Source: Verrucomicrobiota bacterium
GTDB taxonomy: Bacteria; Verrucomicrobiota; Verrucomicrobiia; Verrucomicrobiales; Verrucomicrobiaceae
Assembly (NCBI GenBank): GCA_009885275.1
Contig: VFKY01000403.1
Location: 1 to 11,354 of the forward strand
Reading direction: 5' to 3'
DNA: 11,354 nucleotides
A model generated the notes under the pieces. That model did no database searches. It was not told the origin of the DNA and was given only the letters and a program-made list of their open reading frames with translations. The position numbers and the translations under genes were made by a program. This document shows, piece by piece, positions 29 through 11,354 of the stretch (within the stretch, counting starts at the first letter, position 1; the number at the start of each line of letters is the position of its first letter).

Positions 29-3000
29 ATGAAAATGACGATTCCTCAAAAGATTTCATGGATGCGGCTGTCTGCCACATTGATATTCGCGCTTTCAACT
101 GATGCAGTATTTGCTGAAGGCAAAATTGAATTCAATCGTGATATCAGGCCGATTCTCTCCGACACTTGTTTTCATTGTCATGGACCAGATGAAAAGGAAC
201 GAAAGGGCGGTTTGCGTCTCGATATTAAAGCTGAAGCTCTTAAGCCTGCAAAATCGGGATCTTTGGCACTTGTTCCTGGCAAGCCGAACGAAAGTGAATT
301 AATCGCACGCATATTGACGGCAGACGATGATGATTTGATGCCTCCCACGAAGTTGCATAAGCCGCTTACCGCCGAGCAAAAAGCCCTATTAAAGCAATGG
401 GTGGCTGAGGGAGCGGAGTATCAAGGGCATTGGGCCTTTATTAGCCCCGTCAGACCCGAAGTGCCGCCTGTAAAGGATGAAGCTGGAAGGCTGAAGGATG
501 AAAATGGGAAAGCATTGCCACCATCAGCCATTGACGCCTTCATCATGGATCGACTGGCTAAGGAAAAACTGACATATTCACCTGAAGCAGATAAGGCGAC
601 ACTGATCCGGCGCGTGACACTTGATTTAACGGGTTTGCCTCCCACCGCAAATGATGTCGATGCATTTGTGAATGATCAATCAACGCAAGCGTATGAGCGA
701 GTGGTCGATCGATTGCTGGCATCAAAGCAATACGGAGAAGTGATGGCCATGGAGTGGTTGGATTACGCTCGTTATGCCGACAGTCATGGCTTTCAAACGG
801 ACAGTTCGCGCAGCATGTGGCCATGGCGCGATTGGGTGATTAATTCTTTTAACGATAACAAGCCGTTTGATAAGTTCACGGTGGAGCAGATCGCCGGAGA
901 TCTCTTGCCTAATGCAACTCGTGAGCAAATCGTGGCCACGGGATTTAATCGTAATCATCGACTCAACGGTGAAGGAGGCATCATTGCGGAAGAGTGGCGC
1001 ATCGAAAACATCATTGATCGTGTTGAAACCACTTCATTCACTTGGATGGGGCTGACAATGAATTGCTGTCGATGCCATGATCATAAGTATGATCCGTTAA
1101 CGCAGCGTGATTTCTACAGCATGTTTGCATTCTTTAATAATATATCAGAATCAGGGACAATACAGGGGGCTTCAAATCGAGCGGGTGGTAATAGTCCGCC
1201 AACGATTGATGTGCCATCGCCAGAACAAGAAGTTCAGTTGGTGAAACTCAAGGACGGGATAAAAAGTGCAGAATTGAAAGTTGCAGAGGCTGCTAAAGAG
1301 TTGCCCAGCCTTATTGCTGCATGGGAACCGATCGCGATGAGTTCACTTCAAGCGGAGACGAACTCTTGGCATATGATTGAACCGACCAAAGTAGAATCTC
1401 AAGGTCAAGCGGAGTTCATAAAGCAAGGGGATGGATCGTATCTTGTTGGTGGAAGTAATCCACCCAGCGACGTATATACTATCACTGCGAAAATTACCGC
1501 ATCAGATAAGTTGAGTGCGATCTTGTTGGAATGTCTTCCCGATGAATCACTGCCCAATAAAAGTCTCGGGAGAGCTAGCAATGGAAACTTTGTGTTGAGT
1601 GCACTTGAGGTGAGTTTAAGCGATCCGAAAACACTTAAACCGAAGTTACTTAAAGTCACAAAAGTGGAAGCGAGTTACTCACAAAAGAGTTACGAGATTG
1701 CCAATGTATTGAAACCCGCGAAAAGCAAAGGCTGGGCCGTCGATGGTAACACACGTCGTGAAGCTACTAATGCGATGTTTATACTTGAAAAACCTGAGTC
1801 TATACCTTCAGGCAGTGTCATCACGATCACTCTGAAGCATGGAAAGGACTTCGGTCAGCACAACATCGGTCGATTTAGATTATCATCGAGTTCTATAGAT
1901 CCAAAATTGGTGAGGCTTGATGGAGCGTCACCGATTGCGGCTGTGAGTTCCATTCTCAAAACACCCGAAGCCAAACGCAATCCAGCGCAGAAAAATCAAT
2001 TAATCAGTTTCTATCGTTCCAATGTGGATAGTGCGGTGAAAAAAGCTGACGATGAGCTCACGGCTACTAAAAAGGTTCTAACTGATTATGAGAATAGTAT
2101 CCCAACGGTTATGATCATGAAAGAGGCCGATAAACCAAAGGACACTTTCATCCTTCATCGCGGTGAATATGATAAACCCGAAGGTAAGGTAACGATGGCG
2201 ACACCTTCGGTCTTCCCCCCGATGCCTGAAGGGGCACCGGTCAATCGTCTGGGGTTGGCACAATGGATTGTAGATGAAAAGAACCCACTCACTTCGCGTG
2301 TCTGGGTAAATCGTTCATGGGCAAAGTTTTTTGGTTATGGCCTTTGTAAATCAACGGACAACATTGGTTCTCAAGCGGAGTGGCCGAGTAACCCGGCACT
2401 TCTCGACTGGCTAGCCACAGAGTTCATTCGCATGAAATGGGATATGAAAGCCTTTCAAAAAATGCTGGTCATGAGCGCCACTTATCGGCAGTCCTCCAAG
2501 ATTACCAAAGAGATGTCTGAGCGCGATCCTGACAATCGATTGCTGGCTCGTGGTCCTCGTTTTCGCTTGAGTGGTGAAGCAGTTCGTGATCAGGCGCTCT
2601 TCATATCGGGACTACTCGTGCCAAAGATTGGCGGTCCGAGTGTAAGGCCCTACATGCCTAATGGTGTGTGGGATGAAACAAGCAAATACGGTGATTTACT
2701 TGGTTACAAAAACGCGACAGACGATGGATTATACCGTCGCAGTTTTTACACGATTTGGAAACGGACGGCTGCTCCACCTAGTATGTTATTATTTGATGTT
2801 CCCACTCGTGAAATTTGCACCATAAAGCGGAGCCGAACCAATACACCATTGCAGGCGTTAGCATTATTGAATGAAGTGACGTTCGTGGAAGCCTCTCGAG
2901 CACTTGCTGAAATAATGATAAAGGAAGGGGGGGCGACTCCTGAGTTGCGCCTCGCTTATGGCTATAAGCGCGCCACATCACGTAGCATTGATGATGTCGG

Positions 3001-3190
3001 ATTGAAGACCTTACTCAAAGGATTTAATGACCGTTTAGCATTTTACAATGCGCATGCGGATGACGCCAAGAAACTGATTACTCAGGGGGAAAGCAAACCT
3101 GATCCCGCACTTAATGTTTCTGAACTTGCTGCTTATACCACGAGCGCAAGTGTCTTGCTGAATCTCGATCGTGTCGTTGCACGTGACTGA
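29..3190 (+). CDS. Exported PSCyt1-DUF1549-DUF1553 cytochrome-like protein (copy 1)
   Basis: This is a large secreted protein of the planctomycete/verrucomicrobial type. Residues 1-29 form a signal peptide (hydrophobic stretch, AVFA before the likely cut). PSCyt1 spans about 35-110, with a c-type heme motif CFHCH at 47-51 and a likely Met ligand in MPP at 104. DUF1549 spans about 165-372 and carries a second CxxCH (C346-H350) followed by DHKYDP. About 480-645 looks like a beta-sandwich of the discoidin/carbohydrate-binding kind (NGNFVLSALEV, GWAVDG, NIGRFRLS). DUF1553 spans about 737-1000 (NPLTSRVWVNR, SATYRQSS, NTPLQALALLNE). The C-terminus ends normally in LNLDRVV. The biochemical activity of the family is unproven; a redox role linked to polysaccharide breakdown is inference. 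The stop at 3188-3190 overlaps an ATG at 3190-3192, which is relevant to the cassette described downstream. I see no strong Shine-Dalgarno before position 29; a second ATG lies two codons in. The promoter is outside the window. Confidence 0.93.
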   Translation: MKMTIPQKISWMRLSATLIFALSTDAVFAEGKIEFNRDIRPILSDTCFHCHGPDEKERKGGLRLDIKAEALKPAKSGSLALVPGKPNESELIARILTADDDDLMPPTKLHKPLTAEQKALLKQWVAEGAEYQGHWAFISPVRPEVPPVKDEAGRLKDENGKALPPSAIDAFIMDRLAKEKLTYSPEADKATLIRRVTLDLTGLPPTANDVDAFVNDQSTQAYERVVDRLLASKQYGEVMAMEWLDYARYADSHGFQTDSSRSMWPWRDWVINSFNDNKPFDKFTVEQIAGDLLPNATREQIVATGFNRNHRLNGEGGIIAEEWRIENIIDRVETTSFTWMGLTMNCCRCHDHKYDPLTQRDFYSMFAFFNNISESGTIQGASNRAGGNSPPTIDVPSPEQEVQLVKLKDGIKSAELKVAEAAKELPSLIAAWEPIAMSSLQAETNSWHMIEPTKVESQGQAEFIKQGDGSYLVGGSNPPSDVYTITAKITASDKLSAILLECLPDESLPNKSLGRASNGNFVLSALEVSLSDPKTLKPKLLKVTKVEASYSQKSYEIANVLKPAKSKGWAVDGNTRREATNAMFILEKPESIPSGSVITITLKHGKDFGQHNIGRFRLSSSSIDPKLVRLDGASPIAAVSSILKTPEAKRNPAQKNQLISFYRSNVDSAVKKADDELTATKKVLTDYENSIPTVMIMKEADKPKDTFILHRGEYDKPEGKVTMATPSVFPPMPEGAPVNRLGLAQWIVDEKNPLTSRVWVNRSWAKFFGYGLCKSTDNIGSQAEWPSNPALLDWLATEFIRMKWDMKAFQKMLVMSATYRQSSKITKEMSERDPDNRLLARGPRFRLSGEAVRDQALFISGLLVPKIGGPSVRPYMPNGVWDETSKYGDLLGYKNATDDGLYRRSFYTIWKRTAAPPSMLLFDVPTREICTIKRSRTNTPLQALALLNEVTFVEASRALAEIMIKEGGATPELRLAYGYKRATSRSIDDVGLKTLLKGFNDRLAFYNAHADDAKKLITQGESKPDPALNVSELAAYTTSASVLLNLDRVVARD

Positions 3191-3194
3191 TGCT

Positions 3195-3236
3195 GAACAT
3201 TGAACGTCCAACATGGAACATCCAACATTGAACACT
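3195..3236 (+). repeat. Left heptad-repeat array (six 7-bp units)
   Basis: Six consecutive 7-bp units fit the pattern (G/C)AACATN with few deviations: GAACATT, GAACGTC, CAACATG, GAACATC, CAACATT, GAACACT. It starts 4 bases after the DUF1553 stop. The array is open in frame and contains the ATG at 3213 used as the longest start of the next ORF. It is the inverted counterpart of the array at 3718-3752. From memory, similar sequence, read in translation as peptides like MLNVQ, is widespread in Verrucomicrobiota genomes; this could not be checked here. Confidence 0.75.
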
Positions 3237-3677
3237 ATGAATGCGAGGAAGAGAGTGGAGCGAGGTATTGAATATCAGGTGACTACGTGTGGTGAAGGTA
3301 GGAAGTATGATCTTGAAGAGAGGTTGTTGGAATATGCAGCGGATGTAATTCGGTTTTGTGATGGCACTATGAAGACGGATGCAGGTAGGCATGTTAGTGG
3401 ACAACTACTGCGTTCCGGCACTGCTCCACTGGCGCATCAGGGAGAGGCACAGGCAGCGGAGTCACCGAGAGACTTCATTCACAAGATGAGGGTGGCACTG
3501 AAGGAGCTCAGGGAATCTTGCCGATGGATCAAACTTGCCATTCGTGTGCCTCTAACCAATGAAATAGAACGAGCCAATTTTCTCCTCGCTGAGACAGATC
3601 AGCTTACTCGCATTTTCGTCGCCAGTATCCGCACCGCTCGAAGCAATTCTTTGCGTGGCCAAACCCAAGAATCATAA
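3213..3677 (+). CDS. Four-helix-bundle protein, S23/23S rRNA intervening-sequence protein family
   Basis: This is a small protein of 154 residues (146 from the internal ATG at 3237). It matches the four-helix-bundle family first described from ORFs inside 23S rRNA intervening sequences and related to the Avd accessory proteins of diversity-generating retroelements. Recognisable segments are [17 protein letters not shown] (about 32-48), [15 protein letters not shown] (about 58-72), [19 protein letters not shown] (about 84-102) and a final helix at about 115-142 ending FVASIRTAR. Together they predict four amphipathic helices. No catalytic motif is visible; family members are thought to form oligomers that bind nucleic acid, but a cell function is not established. 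The first eight residues are encoded by the repeat array, so the true start may be 3237. It lies between DUF1553 and DUF1501, 11 bp before the longest DUF1501 start. Confidence 0.85.
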
Positions 3678-3688
3678 TCCCCCTATCC

Positions 3689-5185
3689 ATGACTCTCAAA
3701 CACAATTCCCCTACTTCAATGTTCGGCGTTGAACGTTCGATGTTGAATGTTCAAGACACCCTCAATCGACGTGTCTTTCTTAGAAACAGCGCTGGAGCGA
3801 TAGGTGCCACAGCCCTGTCATCGCTGATGGCGAACGATGCCCTTCCATCCGCTCTACCCAGTGCTGGAGGACTTGCGGGGTTCCCCAACTTTGCGCCCAA
3901 AGCAAAACGCATCATCTATCTTTTTCAATCTGGCGCTCCCTCCCAGATGGACTTGTTTGATCCAAAGCCACAAATGGAGAAACGTCGCGGTGAAGATTTG
4001 CCCGCCACCATTCGGAATGGTCAGCGACTTACGGGTATGACTTCCGGGCAAAAGACATTTCCTGTTGCACCCTCCATTTTTAAATTTGCGCAGCATGGAA
4101 ACAGTGGTGCTTGGATCAGTGATCTTATGCCCAATATTTCGGGTATTGCCGATGAACTCTGTTTCATCAAATCCATGCATACCGAGGCGATCAATCATGA
4201 TCCAGCGATCACATTTTTCCAGACCGGCTCGCAACTTGCGGGCAGGCCAAGCATTGGCTCATGGCTGAGTTATGGATTAGGCAGTAGCAATAAAGATCTG
4301 CCTGCCTATGTCGTTCTAACCTCTTTTGGTACGGGTAGACGCGAAGACCAGCCCCTTTATGATCGTCTCTGGGGCAGTGGATTTATACCAACGCAACATC
4401 AGGGAGTAAAATTCCGCAACACGGGAGATCCTGTGCTTTATCTTTCTAATCCCTCGGGCGTAGATCGGGGCACTCGTCGAGCCATGTTGGATGAGTTGTC
4501 CATTTTAAATCAGCGTGACTTTGAGCAGTTTGGTGATCCAGAAACACAGACTCGCATTTCACAATATGAGATGGCTTTCCGTATGCAAATGAGCGTGCCA
4601 GATCTTGTGGATACGAGCAAGGAACCGCAGCACGTGATTGATGCTTATGGACCGGATGTGAAGAAGCCTGGGACTTTCGCTGCGAACTGCCTGCTTGCAC
4701 GTCGCCTCGCTGAAAGGGATGTCCGCTGCATTCAGCTTTTCCACATGGGATGGGATCACCATGGCGGATTGCCTGCTGCGATTAAGGGGCAGTGTAGCGA
4801 TACTGATCAACCCACAGCCGCACTCATCAAAGATCTTAAAGAACGTGGGTTGCTTGAAGATACACTTATCGTTTGGGGCGGAGAATTTGGTCGCACCATT
4901 TATTCCCAAGGTGAACTTTCTGAAACTAATTATGGTCGCGATCACCATCCGCGTTGCTTTACTATTTTCATGGCCGGCGCTGGTGTTAAAAAGGGAACTA
5001 CTTTCGGGGCGACAGATGACTATTGTTACAACATCACCCAAGATCCGGTTCACGTGCATGATCTTAATGCCACCATCATGCATCTTCTTGGTGTGAATCA
5101 TGAGCGTCTTACTTATCGTTTCCAGGGGCGTGATTATCGTCTCACAGACATTGCGGGGAAAGTGGTGAAGGGTGTTCTGGCATAG
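3689..5185 (+). CDS. Tat-exported DUF1501 (sulfatase-like fold) protein
   Basis: This is a DUF1501 family protein. The Tat signal is NRRVFLRN at about 26-33, followed by a hydrophobic stretch to about residue 48. The body carries the family's landmarks: [16 protein letters not shown] (about 79-94), [17 protein letters not shown] (355-360), WGGEFGRT (396-403), GRDHHP (416-421) and HVHDLNATI with H455, H457 and D458. The His/Asp clusters resemble metal sites of the alkaline-phosphatase/sulfatase fold. No sulfatase C/S-x-P-x-R active-site signature is seen, so sulfatase activity is not claimed. The protein usually partners a PSCyt1-DUF1549-DUF1553 protein. The start is uncertain: 3689, 3719 and 3740 are all in-frame ATGs, and residues 10-22 ([13 protein letters not shown]) are encoded by the heptad repeat. 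The 3740 start gives the shortest leader before the Tat motif. The C-terminus appears complete. Confidence 0.93.
3718..3752 (-). repeat. Right heptad-repeat array (five 7-bp units, inverted)
   Basis: Read on the minus strand the units are GAACATT, CAACATC, GAACGTT, CAACGCC and GAACATT, the same heptad family as 3195-3236 in opposite orientation. The array falls inside the DUF1501 reading frame and supplies two of its possible ATG starts (3719 and 3740). Its last base, 3752, is the point at which removing the cassette restores a direct in-frame junction with the upstream gene. Confidence 0.75.
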
Positions 5186-7524: not shown

Positions 7525-10454
7525 GAGTGTTGCTATCAATGGTATTATTATTTGCAGCATCGTTGGCAAGAGCTGATGAGTTTTTCACTTCAAAGATCGA
7601 GCCGCTGTTGAAGCAACGCTGCTACGAGTGTCATTCGCACGAGAAGAAGATGAAGGGTGGTTTGACGCTCGATTCGAAATCTGGCTGGGAACAAGGAGGC
7701 GACGCTGGGCCGAGTATCGTAGTAGGAAAACCGGATGAGAGTTTATTGATTAAGATGGTGCGCTGGGCTGATGGTGACCATCAGATGCCGCCGAAGGAAA
7801 AGCTCCCCGCGGCCGAAATTGCGTTACTGGAAGAGTGGGTGAAGCAAGGCGCGGCGGACCCGCGGGTGATCGTGAAGACTCGGCCAAATGCTACGGACTG
7901 GTGGTCATTGAAGCCGTTGATAAAACCTGTCCCTCCAGTGCTCGCGGACGCAACGGTCGGGCATCCTGTTGATCGCTTCATCCGAGCAAGGCTCGCAGAA
8001 CGGAAGCTGACACCATCACCGGAAGCGGATCGTCGCACGCTCATTCGCCGTGTGTACTATGATTTGCATGGCTTGCCACCGTCACTGGCTGAGGTGGAGG
8101 CTTTTGAGAAGGATAGCGAACCGAAGGCTTACGAGCAACTAGTGGATCGATTGCTCGCTTCTCCACGCTATGGCGAGCGCTGGGCTCGCAATTGGCTGGA
8201 TACGATTCACTTTGCGGAGACGCATGGCTGCGGTCACGATCTTCCACGGGATCATGCTTGGCGATATCGCGATTATGTTATTGAATCATTGAACGCCGAC
8301 AAGCCATGGTCGCGGTTCGTTCGGGAGCAACTCGCTGCGGACCGTTTGTTCCCCGATGAGCCGCGTCTCATCGCCGCGCTTGGTTTTCTAGGGGCGGGTG
8401 TGTTTGACCACAGTGCATTCCAGACGGCACCTACCAACTTCGATTACCTCGACCGTGATGACTTGGTGACGCAGACGATGGCGGCCTTCACCAGCACCAC
8501 GGCGAACTGCGCGCGCTGCCACGCGCACAAGTTTGATCCGATTACGCAGGAGGACTATTACGCCCTGCAATCGGTCTTCGCGGGCATCATCGAGGGCGAC
8601 ATTCCCTTTGATGAAGATACGAAGGTTGCGCAGCAGCGGAAGCACTGGCAGTCGCTCCTCACAGCGGTTGAGGCCCAAGACAAGACCGTGCTGCTCACGG
8701 CGGAGAATGAGGCGATCGTCGCTGATTGGGAGAAGCACCAGGGGCCGGCGGTGAAATGGACTACGCTTGAATACGAGAGTTTCATCAGCACGGAGGGTTC
8801 GACGCTTTCTCGCAGTGGCGAGGTCATCATCTCTGACGGCGCAAAGCCTGAGAAAGACACGTATGTTATCACTGCAACGTCACCGTCGGCGAGCATCACC
8901 GCGCTCCGGCTCGATGTAATTGCAGACAAGTCATTGCCCAAGAACGGCCCTGGCAGGCAGGACAACGGCAATCTGACTGTGAGCGAGTTTGAGGCGCAGG
9001 TCTTCGATTCTGGAGCTGCAACGCCGATGAAGTTGAAGTTCTCGCGTGCAACGGCGGACTTCAATCAAGAGAACTACGCGGCACCTGCGGCCCTTGATGG
9101 CAATCCAGCCACCGGGTGGGCCATTCATCCAGCAGTAGGTCAGTCGCACCATGCGGTTTTTGAACTCGCTACGCCGCTGGTTTTGAAGCCAGGCGCAAAG
9201 CTCACCATCACGATGAAGCAGCTCGCTCCGCAGGCGCATCTCGTGGGGCGCTTTAAGCTCTCGGCGACCGATGAACCGGCATCGCGTGCTTCGGCGATAC
9301 CCTTGCTCGCCTCCGCTACGCTCTCTATTCCCGTCGACCAACGCAGCGAGCCACAACGCCTCGCGCTCGCCGTTCATGCATTGCGTCTTCGTGCCGTTGA
9401 TGAATTACCAAAGCTGCCTGCGCCAGCGCTCGTCTATGCTGCGGGCAAGAAAGCTGACGTTCTATTGGCTGTCAGCAAAGGCACGCCAACCACCGTGGAC
9501 AAGCCCAAGGTAGTGAACATCTTGAAACGTGGCGAGTTCGACAAGCCCATCGGTGACGTCGAGAGTGGCGCGCTCAGTGCGTTGACGGCGGTGCCCGCAC
9601 GCTTCACCAAGGCCCACATTGGCGACGAATCCGAGCGCCGTGCCGCGCTCGCAGATTGGATTGCCGATGACAACAATCCGCTCACCTGGCGCAGCATCGC
9701 GAACCGCGTTTGGCATCATCATTTCGGTCGCGGTATTTGCGATACGCCGAGCGATTTCGGGCGCATGGGCGGCGCACCTTCGCACCCCGAACTGCTTGAC
9801 TGGCTAGCGTGCGAAATGCGCGAGAGTGGTGGCTCTTTGAAGCATCTGCATCGCCTCATCGTCACCAGCGCCACGTATCGTCAGAGCAGCTCACATCGTG
9901 ATGACGGCGTGTTGCTCGATACAGACAACCGCCTACTCTGGCGCATGAACCGCCTGCGGCTCGACGCCGACAGTTATCGCGACTTTGTTCTCGCTACTGC
10001 GGACAAGCTCGACCTCGCCGTCGGTGGTCCCAGCGAGCGGCAATTCATCACCGGCCCGCCCGTGCAGCTTACGCCCACGCTCGACTATGCCTCCTACGAT
10101 TGGTCTGCGCTGCCGAAGCATCGCCGCAGTATCTACCGCTTCGTCTGGCGCGGCGTGCCCGATCCTTTCATGGACACGCTCGACTTCCCCGACCTCGGAA
10201 TGCTCGCTCCGATGCGTAGTTTCTCCGCGTCATCGTTGCAATCTCTCGCTCTCTACAACAACGGTTTCGTGCTGCACTTCAGTAGTGAGATGGGCAAGCA
10301 AAGCACCACACCCATCGATGCCATCCGCCGTATCCTTCTGCGCGAGCCGACCGCAGATGAGCTCCGCGACTTCACCACGTATGCAGATAAGAGCGGCCTC
10401 CCCGCGCTCTTCCGCGTGCTTATCAACAGCAATGAATTTCTCTTTGTGAACTGA
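7521..10454 (+). CDS. Exported PSCyt1-DUF1549-DUF1553 cytochrome-like protein (copy 2)
   Basis: This 977-residue protein is a paralogue of the first gene with the same domain order. The signal peptide is residues 1-18 (ARA before the cut). PSCyt1 carries CYECH at 34-38 and a likely Met ligand in MPP at 89. DUF1549 spans about 145-350, with a second CxxCH at 330-334 followed by AHKFDP. A beta-sandwich region spans about 430-600 (DNGNLTVSEFEAQVF, DGNPATGWAIHP, LVGRFKLS). DUF1553 spans about 705-955 (NPLTWRSIANRVWHHHFG, SATYRQSS, SASSLQSLALYNN). The protein is slightly shorter than copy 1, and its C-terminal part differs (EFLFVN end). It overlaps the IclR gene by 4 bp. Base composition rises along the gene: hand counts give 29/60 GC at 7621-7680, 35/60 at 9661-9720 and 42/60 at 10021-10080. 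No DUF1501 partner follows within the window. The biochemical role is as uncertain as for copy 1. Confidence 0.93.
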   Translation: MRVLLSMVLLFAASLARADEFFTSKIEPLLKQRCYECHSHEKKMKGGLTLDSKSGWEQGGDAGPSIVVGKPDESLLIKMVRWADGDHQMPPKEKLPAAEIALLEEWVKQGAADPRVIVKTRPNATDWWSLKPLIKPVPPVLADATVGHPVDRFIRARLAERKLTPSPEADRRTLIRRVYYDLHGLPPSLAEVEAFEKDSEPKAYEQLVDRLLASPRYGERWARNWLDTIHFAETHGCGHDLPRDHAWRYRDYVIESLNADKPWSRFVREQLAADRLFPDEPRLIAALGFLGAGVFDHSAFQTAPTNFDYLDRDDLVTQTMAAFTSTTANCARCHAHKFDPITQEDYYALQSVFAGIIEGDIPFDEDTKVAQQRKHWQSLLTAVEAQDKTVLLTAENEAIVADWEKHQGPAVKWTTLEYESFISTEGSTLSRSGEVIISDGAKPEKDTYVITATSPSASITALRLDVIADKSLPKNGPGRQDNGNLTVSEFEAQVFDSGAATPMKLKFSRATADFNQENYAAPAALDGNPATGWAIHPAVGQSHHAVFELATPLVLKPGAKLTITMKQLAPQAHLVGRFKLSATDEPASRASAIPLLASATLSIPVDQRSEPQRLALAVHALRLRAVDELPKLPAPALVYAAGKKADVLLAVSKGTPTTVDKPKVVNILKRGEFDKPIGDVESGALSALTAVPARFTKAHIGDESERRAALADWIADDNNPLTWRSIANRVWHHHFGRGICDTPSDFGRMGGAPSHPELLDWLACEMRESGGSLKHLHRLIVTSATYRQSSSHRDDGVLLDTDNRLLWRMNRLRLDADSYRDFVLATADKLDLAVGGPSERQFITGPPVQLTPTLDYASYDWSALPKHRRSIYRFVWRGVPDPFMDTLDFPDLGMLAPMRSFSASSLQSLALYNNGFVLHFSSEMGKQSTTPIDAIRRILLREPTADELRDFTTYADKSGLPALFRVLINSNEFLFVN

Positions 10455-10460
10455 AAGAAT

Positions 10461-10529
10461 AGGCAGGGGAATGGGTGGCAAAGGAATAGAAATCAGAAGA
10501 ACATTCCCCTGCCACCCATTCCTCTGCCT
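10461..10529. repeat. Long imperfect palindrome of a 15-bp repeat unit
   Basis: The arms 10461-10487 and 10503-10529 are complementary at 24 of 27 positions around a 15-base loop, starting 6 bases after the DUF1553 stop. Each arm contains two units of the form GGCA-RRGGAAT about 15 bp apart. The same unit in direct orientation reappears at the window end. As RNA it would form a strong hairpin, which may stop or stabilise the upstream message, but there is no T-tract. I associate this repeat type with GxxExxY genes in Verrucomicrobiota; that association is from memory. Confidence 0.7.
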
Positions 10530-10539
10530 TCATCCTCTC

Positions 10540-11354
10540 ATGCCCATCCAATCCACGATCCATCTCCACGACCTGACACAGTCGGCCTTCGATGAACTCG
10601 ACGAGGTGGTGATGCGCCATGCCTATGCCTCGCAAAACAAGTTCGGTCGTCTCTTTGATGAGCGAATCTATGAGAACGACCTCGCGAAGCGTCTTCGCGC
10701 CGAAGGCTTCGATGTCCATACACAAGTGCCGGTCAAAGTCAGTCACGTATCGTTCGAGAAGGGCTACTTTCTCGACCTTGTTGTGAATGACATGCTCTAC
10801 GAACTCAAGGTCGTCGCGGCGTTGTTGCCCGAGCATCAGGCGCAGGCCCTGCACTACGCCATGATGAACAACATTCGCCGCGTGAAGCTGATTAACTTTC
10901 GCTCCAGCAGGGTCGTTGGTGAGCTGCTCTACAATCCAATCGGCGATGCTGAACGGCATCAGCCCGTTTTTGTCACCGAATCGTTCCGACCGCTGACTCC
11001 CGGTTGTGAGATGCTTGTCTCGCAGGTACGCAGTTTTGTGGCGGATTGGGGCACGCATTTGAGCAGCCGACTTTATAGCGAGGCACTCGTGCATCATTTC
11101 GGCGGTGAACAAGAGTGTCTATTCAGAGTTCCAGTGGGTGAAGTGAGCGACCCTTTGGGCACGCACCTGATTCAGTCCCATTCAAAGAAGCACAGTTTTG
11201 TCGTCACAAGCATCACGCGAGAAGTCCGGCAACATCGCGGGCATTTGCAGTGCCTGCTCAACAACCTCGGCATCGAGACGATGCAGTGGATTAATTTCAA
11301 CCGCTCCAGAATCGAGTTCACCACGCTGATGAAAGGAATGAAGGCAGGGGAATG
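10540..11354 (+). CDS. GxxExxY family protein, PDDEXK-nuclease-like, two-lobed (3' end beyond window)
   Basis: The frame is open from ATG 10540 to the window edge: 271 codons plus TG. The first lobe (about residues 12-135) matches the GxxExxY family: FGRLFDERIYENDL stands where the family's G-E-Y motif is expected, then FLDLVV with D79, YELK with E88 and K90, and EHQAQALHYAMMNN through INF (118-120). D79, E88 and K90 fit a PDDEXK-type nuclease core, although no activity has been shown for the family to my knowledge. The second half (about 175-262) looks like a decayed copy: RLYSEALV, then HRGH (H232) with INF at 251-253, at the same 19-residue spacing as in lobe one, but lacking an E-x-K at the matching site. 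The last residues (KGMKAGE) are encoded by a repeat copy, so the stop lies just outside. A 228-residue minus-strand frame across this gene is a shadow. Confidence 0.85.
   Translation, partial: MPIQSTIHLHDLTQSAFDELDEVVMRHAYASQNKFGRLFDERIYENDLAKRLRAEGFDVHTQVPVKVSHVSFEKGYFLDLVVNDMLYELKVVAALLPEHQAQALHYAMMNNIRRVKLINFRSSRVVGELLYNPIGDAERHQPVFVTESFRPLTPGCEMLVSQVRSFVADWGTHLSSRLYSEALVHHFGGEQECLFRVPVGEVSDPLGTHLIQSHSKKHSFVVTSITREVRQHRGHLQCLLNNLGIETMQWINFNRSRIEFTTLMKGMKAGE
11335..11354 (+). repeat. Further copy of the 15-bp-unit repeat, cut by the window end
   Basis: The last 20 bases contain two GGAAT-bearing units, including a 13-bp exact match (11342-11354) to 10461-10473. It lies inside the 3' end of the GxxExxY frame. 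With 10461-10529 it places the GxxExxY gene between copies of one repeat family. Confidence 0.6.

Follow-up and report, generated by a model that had tools for sequence, protein, structure and literature searches.

The 11,354-nt contig VFKY01000403.1 of a Verrucomicrobiota bacterium (GenBank assembly GCA_009885275.1), analysed at its full length and referred to here as the window, contains a small gene for a four-helix-bundle (4HB) protein of the S23p/IVP family, which is flanked by two inverted arrays of seven-base repeats (heptads) and located between the host genes DUF1553 and DUF1501. We favor, with some reserve, the interpretation that this unit is a cassette resembling the intervening sequences (IVSs) of rRNA genes, which forms a presence/absence allele of the DUF1553-DUF1501 junction, is exchanged as a block and thereby gives the downstream gene a different start. 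Related genomes contain matching filled, remnant and empty sites, filled loci are nested among empty sisters and lack the native start, the 4HB gene is under purifying selection, and similarly placed cassettes occur elsewhere. In the proposed mechanism, a cassette of one 4HB gene between inverted heptad arrays lies directly past the DUF1553 stop codon in the direction of the operon. The cassette allele would replace the approximately 16–25 nt that separate this stop codon from the QDxLNRR codons of DUF1501, and would bring along a new DUF1501 start, composed of an ATG, a linker and in-frame heptads, ahead of a twin-arginine-type motif. Exchange could proceed through homologous recombination between the conserved flanking genes, the paired arms may form a hairpin in the mRNA and the encoded Avd/S23p-like protein may act on nucleic acid.

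As contig C98, the window belongs to a genome of 2.5 Mb (G000) that is 77% complete. The upstream host gene, DUF1553/DUF1549/PSCyt1, codes for a planctomycete-type cytochrome protein (29–3190; PF07587, PF07583, and PF07635) and is followed on the same, forward strand by the left heptad array of TTGAACA/TCCAACR-type units (3194–3234), the 4HB open reading frame (ORF) of 154 codons (3213–3677) and the downstream host gene DUF1501 (3689–5185; PF07394). The right heptad array (3715–3756) is the inverse of the left one and lies inside the DUF1501 frame. Arrays were called by TRF at 3195–3234 and 3721–3752, and the inverted arms (3194–3232 and 3715–3753) extend over 39 nt with 77% complementarity and pair with each other in the lowest-energy RNA fold. 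The conserved core of the 4HB protein starts with K-Y-D-L-E-E-R-L, and an alternative start of its ORF at 3237 is possible. The protein passes the S23p/IVP family profile TIGR02436 (63.3 bits; cut-off 24) and scores just below the cut-off of PF05635 (33.4; cut-off 33.8). Its AlphaFold model (mean pLDDT 85.6) matches the S23p-family structures 2rld (E 5.2e-6; TM by target 0.90) and 2gsc (E 1.6e-4). Additional copies of this gene were not found in the 77% complete genome, in which it is the single match. Heptad arrays of a different unit (CCTTGAA/CCTTAAA) are present on contigs C21, C66, C150, C233, and C392 of G000; some of them are close inverted pairs, for example C21:4090–4175, and no 4HB relative of this kind matched elsewhere in the genome.

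The junction was compared across relatives. DUF1501 searches of 57 genomes and then of 32 more genomes of genus g8 yielded 54 loci (the best 30 and the best 24 matches), to which a partial contig of G006 was added. Exclusion of 12 loci without a recognizable DUF1553 end left 43 junctions; G080 contributes two of these, and paralogues may be included among the most distant loci. Five of these junctions are filled (G000, G006, G007, G070, and G079), one (G069) is a remnant of 124 nt with both arrays and no ORF, and 37 are cassette-free. In the cassette-free junctions, the in-frame ATG of DUF1501 was found at +1 in 13 cases, 0–7 nt past the stop codon in 23, at −4 in three, and overlapping the stop codon in none. 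Empty junctions of genus g8 have similar native starts of the form TGAYATG..., and many cassette-free junctions encode (L/F/I/Y)QDxLNRR N-termini. The preliminary description of the window was therefore right in treating the junction cassette as real and in guessing a tightly packed empty version, though not in expecting DUF1501 to start at an ATG overlapping the DUF1553 stop codon; the relatives' junctions differ from its prediction in their letters, which does not refute its general idea. In G080, the same 4HB subfamily is located ahead of a different DUF1501 paralogue. The cassette-free junction of G088 (L118) measures 777 nt and carries two other small ORFs, which we take to resemble a VapBC-type toxin-antitoxin pair.

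Two filled genomes could be paired with empty sisters, G070 with G059 (93% DNA identity) and G079 with G073 (92%), the sister pairs overall showing 91–93%. In the 75 nt that lead up to the junction, G079 does not differ from empty G073; in the first 60 nt beyond it, G070 shares 98% identity with G059 vs. 86% with G079. Flank windows further out gave mixed identities. A tree built from both flanks pairs G070 with empty G059 (97/98), and a single clade of G070 and G079 was rejected by the approximately unbiased (AU) test (p-AU 0.0027 for both flanks and 0.0058 for the downstream flank). No copy of the native 15-nt start TATGAATCATCCMGC could be recovered from the filled loci (alignment score 7.0 vs. 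a shuffle mean of 6.9), and the event consequently looks like a replacement. Between G070 and G079, the 4HB gene shows a dN of 0.011 and a dS of 0.741 (360 sites), and with a dN/dS of 0.015 it is under strong purifying selection. The dS of the host DUF1501 gene is 0.368, so that the synonymous divergence of the two cassettes is about twice that of the host gene. Together with the nesting of the filled loci, we take this as block-allele exchange or repeated arrival at one place.

Similar cassettes were sought in a wider scan of one genome per species, in which the best 80 of 375 confirmed 4HB relatives were examined. Arrays with a lag of seven flank the 4HB gene upstream in 46 of the 80 loci, downstream in 48 and on both sides in 35. 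Control lags of 5, 6, 8, and 9 gave 0–1 of 80, and seven-base periodicity was seen in five of 94 far-end stretches. The upstream stretch of L136 is an N-run and was removed from the lag-7 count; lone upstream matches at other lags probably reflect the same N-run. Within the 35 two-armed loci, left and right arms match each other at 0.59 vs. 0.38 between loci, a value that none of 2000 permutations reached, and the inverted match beats the direct one in 27 of the 35. Distances to neighboring genes were taken from 78 of the 80 loci (L136 and L186 were left out), and the presence of both an array and a neighboring ORF left 44 loci on each side. The left array starts no more than 20 nt from a same-strand upstream stop codon in 28 of 44 loci, and for the right array the distance from its end to the following gene is this short in 11 of 44. 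Upstream and downstream neighbors share the strand of the cassette in 37 and 39 of 44 cases, respectively. Related 4HB genes adjoin other genes in several phyla. Searches with the window's own proteins identified a 4HB gene between DUF1553 and DUF1501 in four of 75 loci (the five seeds L130–L134 being left out), namely in the same direction in the Planctomycetaceae loci L135, L167, and L209 and in the opposite direction in L189 (Planctomycetota). In Flavobacterium columnare, a four helix bundle gene follows the guanylate kinase gene at a distance of 36 nt and precedes the nicotinate-nucleotide adenylyltransferase gene (PMC5524665). This is the same placement near a stop codon; heptads or inverted repeats are not mentioned in the passages of that paper available to us. 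No description of a heptad-armed 4HB cassette at a DUF1553-DUF1501 junction was found in the titles and abstracts of the open-licence PMC papers listed.

These distributions bear on two further explanations. The 4HB gene could be a resident, non-mobile operon gene with a host role alongside DUF1553 and DUF1501, the repeats being ordinary microsatellites. The low dN/dS, the co-oriented position and the three Planctomycetaceae loci with the same gene order agree with such a role, but the gene is missing from 37 of the 43 junctions, its relatives stand beside other genes in several phyla, and the arms are inverted and matched within each locus; we regard this explanation as rather unlikely. Alternatively, the heptads could have expanded locally out of native CTTCAATTTCAAGAC codons, and the 4HB gene could have been acquired in a separate capture. 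Many empty g8 sites do read CTTCAACTTCAAGACC or CTTCAATTTCAAGACC, which is near the heptad TTCAATGTTCAAGACC. However, the two arrays are inverse in sequence and pair with each other, and the paired design recurs at other sites, which makes a local expansion improbable.

The start of DUF1501 provides further information on how the cassette is joined to its host gene. In-frame ATGs of the window's gene are found at 3689 (the most upstream), 3719, and 3740. All six repeat-bearing loci possess an ATG in the DUF1501 frame ahead of the right array, reading MTSRLPHSMFNVERSMFNVQD in G070, and the right repeats are therefore most likely coding. The right arrays of the six loci contain 5, 5, 2, 5, 8, and 5 full heptads (the count of five in G069 was made by eye, as the script's six includes one spurious unit), all of which are 2 modulo 3, a pattern that tells modestly for a coding array since it involves two length changes only. 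With the right array in the DUF1501 frame and its counts obeying this rule, the position at which the last heptad ends is constrained and does not mark a free boundary. DUF1501 probably begins at 3689, judging from the reading frame, and peptides of this protein running across SMFNVERSMFNVQD would favor a coding right array. In G070 and G079, an additional array precedes the upstream ATG, and G006 shows a degenerate one (by eye).

The preliminary description had proposed that the cassette was inserted precisely into a DUF1501 start overlapping the DUF1553 stop codon, and that the gene has since used a start codon supplied by the terminal repeat. Its reading of the letters is exact: the TGA at 3188–3190 is overlapped by an ATG at 3190–3192, which, as it stated, leads nowhere useful, opening a repeat-coded ORF of 13 codons (3190–3231) that stops 5 nt ahead of the ATG at 3237. 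Virtual deletion of 3194–3752 indeed gives CTGATGCAAGACACC, which reads in frame as M-Q-D-T-L-N-R-R. This segment comprises the left array, the 4HB gene, a linker with the likely DUF1501 start and the right array, so that the deletion would take away the start at 3689, and with right repeats that are most likely coding, the repeat boundaries taken for clean insert ends do not delimit a clean insert. The DUF1501 start does now lie on the cassette side, as proposed, yet probably upstream of the right repeats and not in a terminal repeat. The same virtual deletion in G007, whose junction has TAATGC, also reads ATG-CAG-GAT-ACT (by eye), and the tight cassette-free junctions, 23 of 37 with an ATG 0–7 nt past the stop codon, agree with insertion into a closely packed gene pair. 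Against insertion at the overlapping start itself, none of the 37 empty junctions uses such an ATG for DUF1501, and it is missing in three of the five filled loci (G006, G070, and G079) as well as in the remnant G069. Together with the upstream in-frame ATG in six of six loci and the recurrence of an edge ATG in unrelated cassettes (see below), these results make precise insertion very improbable.

The coincidence of ATG, frame and repeat boundaries, on which that proposal was built, exceeds chance by less than was claimed. An overlapping ATG occurs in two of the 37 cassette-free junctions (G048 and G003) and is the DUF1501 start in neither. It occurs in four of eight DUF1553-4HB-DUF1501 loci of any phylum (G000, G007, L135, and L209, the latter two read by eye) vs. 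these two of 37 empty ones (Fisher p 0.006, post hoc), which suggests that the ATG comes from the cassette rather than from the host. Among 36 named cassette loci with a same-strand upstream gene (37 with L192, which was dropped; L131–L134, that is G007, G070, G079, and G080, are included), three have an ATG overlapping the stop codon, one of them being G007 (L131). An ATG whose A lies 1–6 nt ahead of the first left-array unit was found in 13 of 42 named cassette loci vs. 0–7 of 42 in slid windows (L160, L163, L192, and L193 were left out as they show no recognizable unit). Eleven of these 13 ATGs open a leader of 4–23 codons and two read into the 4HB gene. As the edge ATG recurs in other cassettes, the ATG at 3190 is more likely a cassette edge than a host start; it is probably the cassette's own left edge, its A being shared with the stop codon. 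It may serve as a leader, an idea that arose after the fact. The likeness of G007 to the window's deletion product probably reflects shared ancestry, and the apparent restoration of TGATG can most likely be put down to the cassette edge together with this ancestry.

Several results weigh against exchange of the cassette as a block. The last 120 nt upstream of the junction are a tie, with G070 being 92% identical to both G059 and G079; a clade of G070 and G079 is not rejected when the upstream flank is used alone (p-AU 0.255), and single-flank trees do not resolve the G070 and G079 rows. The native-start test comprises 15 nt only and rules out an intact copy but not a decayed one, and the dS comparison is based on 360 sites, and codon bias could have depressed the host value. 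The cassette taken as a whole folds no more stably than shuffled sequences, 19 of 100 of which did equally well (z −0.86). No recombinase or nuclease was seen, and no target duplication was noticed by eye in the G070/G059 and G079/G073 comparisons, which show replacement. Control gene pairs away from the 4HB gene are often close and co-oriented as well (62 of 88 on the same strand, with a median spacing of 71 nt and 32% of the 62 within 20 nt), and part of the stop-near pattern may thus be ordinary operon spacing; the enrichment of stop-near, co-oriented cassettes is moderate, and some of the loci are close kin. Some of these results would suit a cassette gained once, long ago, and empty alleles that returned later via recombination or loss. 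The layout is common to filled loci of several genera, G069 is decayed, the upstream flank alone is compatible with one clade, and empty G001 and G002 fall inside the filled group of G000, G006, and G007 in a quick DUF1501 tree (SH-aLRT 90 and 94, which is no firm support). However, the similar native starts of the empty g8 junctions would not be re-created by simply deleting a cassette, and the twofold dS of the cassette speaks against a single gain. An old gain appears unlikely to us, though it merits serious consideration beside the favored exchange of a junction allele.

Among known systems, the closest likeness is to rRNA IVSs with an S23p ORF, as described for Leptospira and Coxiella, which share the protein family, an ORF between complementary ends and a sporadic distribution. 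They also show recurrent insertion sites, and a study of the Coxiella IVS states that IVSs replaced a short native tetraloop and are cut out by RNase III (PMC4990558). According to the same paper, S23p proteins have no known function and the Coxiella S23p ORF is under reductive evolution, whereas the 4HB ORF of the cassette is strongly conserved. The cassette furthermore lies between the protein genes DUF1553 and DUF1501, its arms are heptad arrays, and the window contains no match to an rRNA family; it resembles an IVS in layout and is not an IVS by location. The Avd protein of diversity-generating retroelements shares the four-helix-bundle fold, although the Foldseek matches of the 4HB model to 4dwl, 8ub7, and 8ube are weak (TM by query 0.56–0.61, E only 0.09–0.19). 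A Pfam scan of seven window proteins, to which the search was confined, found no reverse transcriptase. The TAACTGA heptamers of Beggiatoaceae likewise form intergenic arrays near start codons and are scattered across phyla, but they are mainly direct repeats of one fixed heptamer, the passages available describe no paired inverted arrays around a gene, and the term “four helix” has no occurrence in that text (PMC4679880). Miniature inverted-repeat transposable elements (MITEs) and insertion sequences have inverted ends and would leave ORF-less remnants such as G069. Unlike these, the cassette encodes no transposase (the rest of the genome was not searched for one), was not noticed to have a target duplication and replaces native sequence.

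The junction also harbors small genes of other kinds. Among 30 DUF1501 loci of four genomes, an upstream DUF1553 was found in 20, of which five have more than 400 nt between the two genes; three of these wide gaps contain a GxxExxY gene, one the 4HB gene (the G070 locus) and one another gene. The order DUF1553-GxxExxY-DUF1501 was present in all five regions chosen for nearby GxxExxY and DUF1501, two of which are also among the 30 loci. Heptads are not a general mark of small junction genes, as arrays were found in one of 30 GxxExxY loci. In the DUF1553-DUF1501 gap next to the empty site of G059 (L272), approximately 690 nt carry a different small cysteine-containing ORF, and the corresponding G070 locus (L271) has GxxExxY. 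In the window, a second DUF1553 gene precedes, at a distance of 17 nt, a GxxExxY-type ORF truncated by the contig end (7521–11352). Since GxxExxY genes occupy DUF1553-DUF1501 junctions in relatives, two such junctions, each with a small inserted gene, may be present in the window. Just past the second DUF1553 stop codon lies a strong hairpin that is not heptad-based (10461–10529; 27-nt arms, 89% complementary, 15-nt loop). Rfam gave 11 weak matches at E <= 0.1 and none at the gathering score, ten of which mark one hairpin near 10448–10543.

With at least 7984 S23p/IVP proteins at E <= 1e-10 among 7997 candidates scored, the family is numerous. Tentatively, heptad-armed S23p/IVP cassettes might represent a widespread class of IVSs of protein genes. 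Such elements would be selfish or addictive, would bring an edge ATG and a reading order of their own, would dock at the stop codon of a transcribed gene and would home into the same operon junction across lineages by replacing the start of the next gene, while the 4HB protein would recognize, in RNA or DNA, the locus-matched arms of its own cassette. The matched filled, decayed and empty sites in close sister genomes make it possible to answer whether and how such cassettes move.

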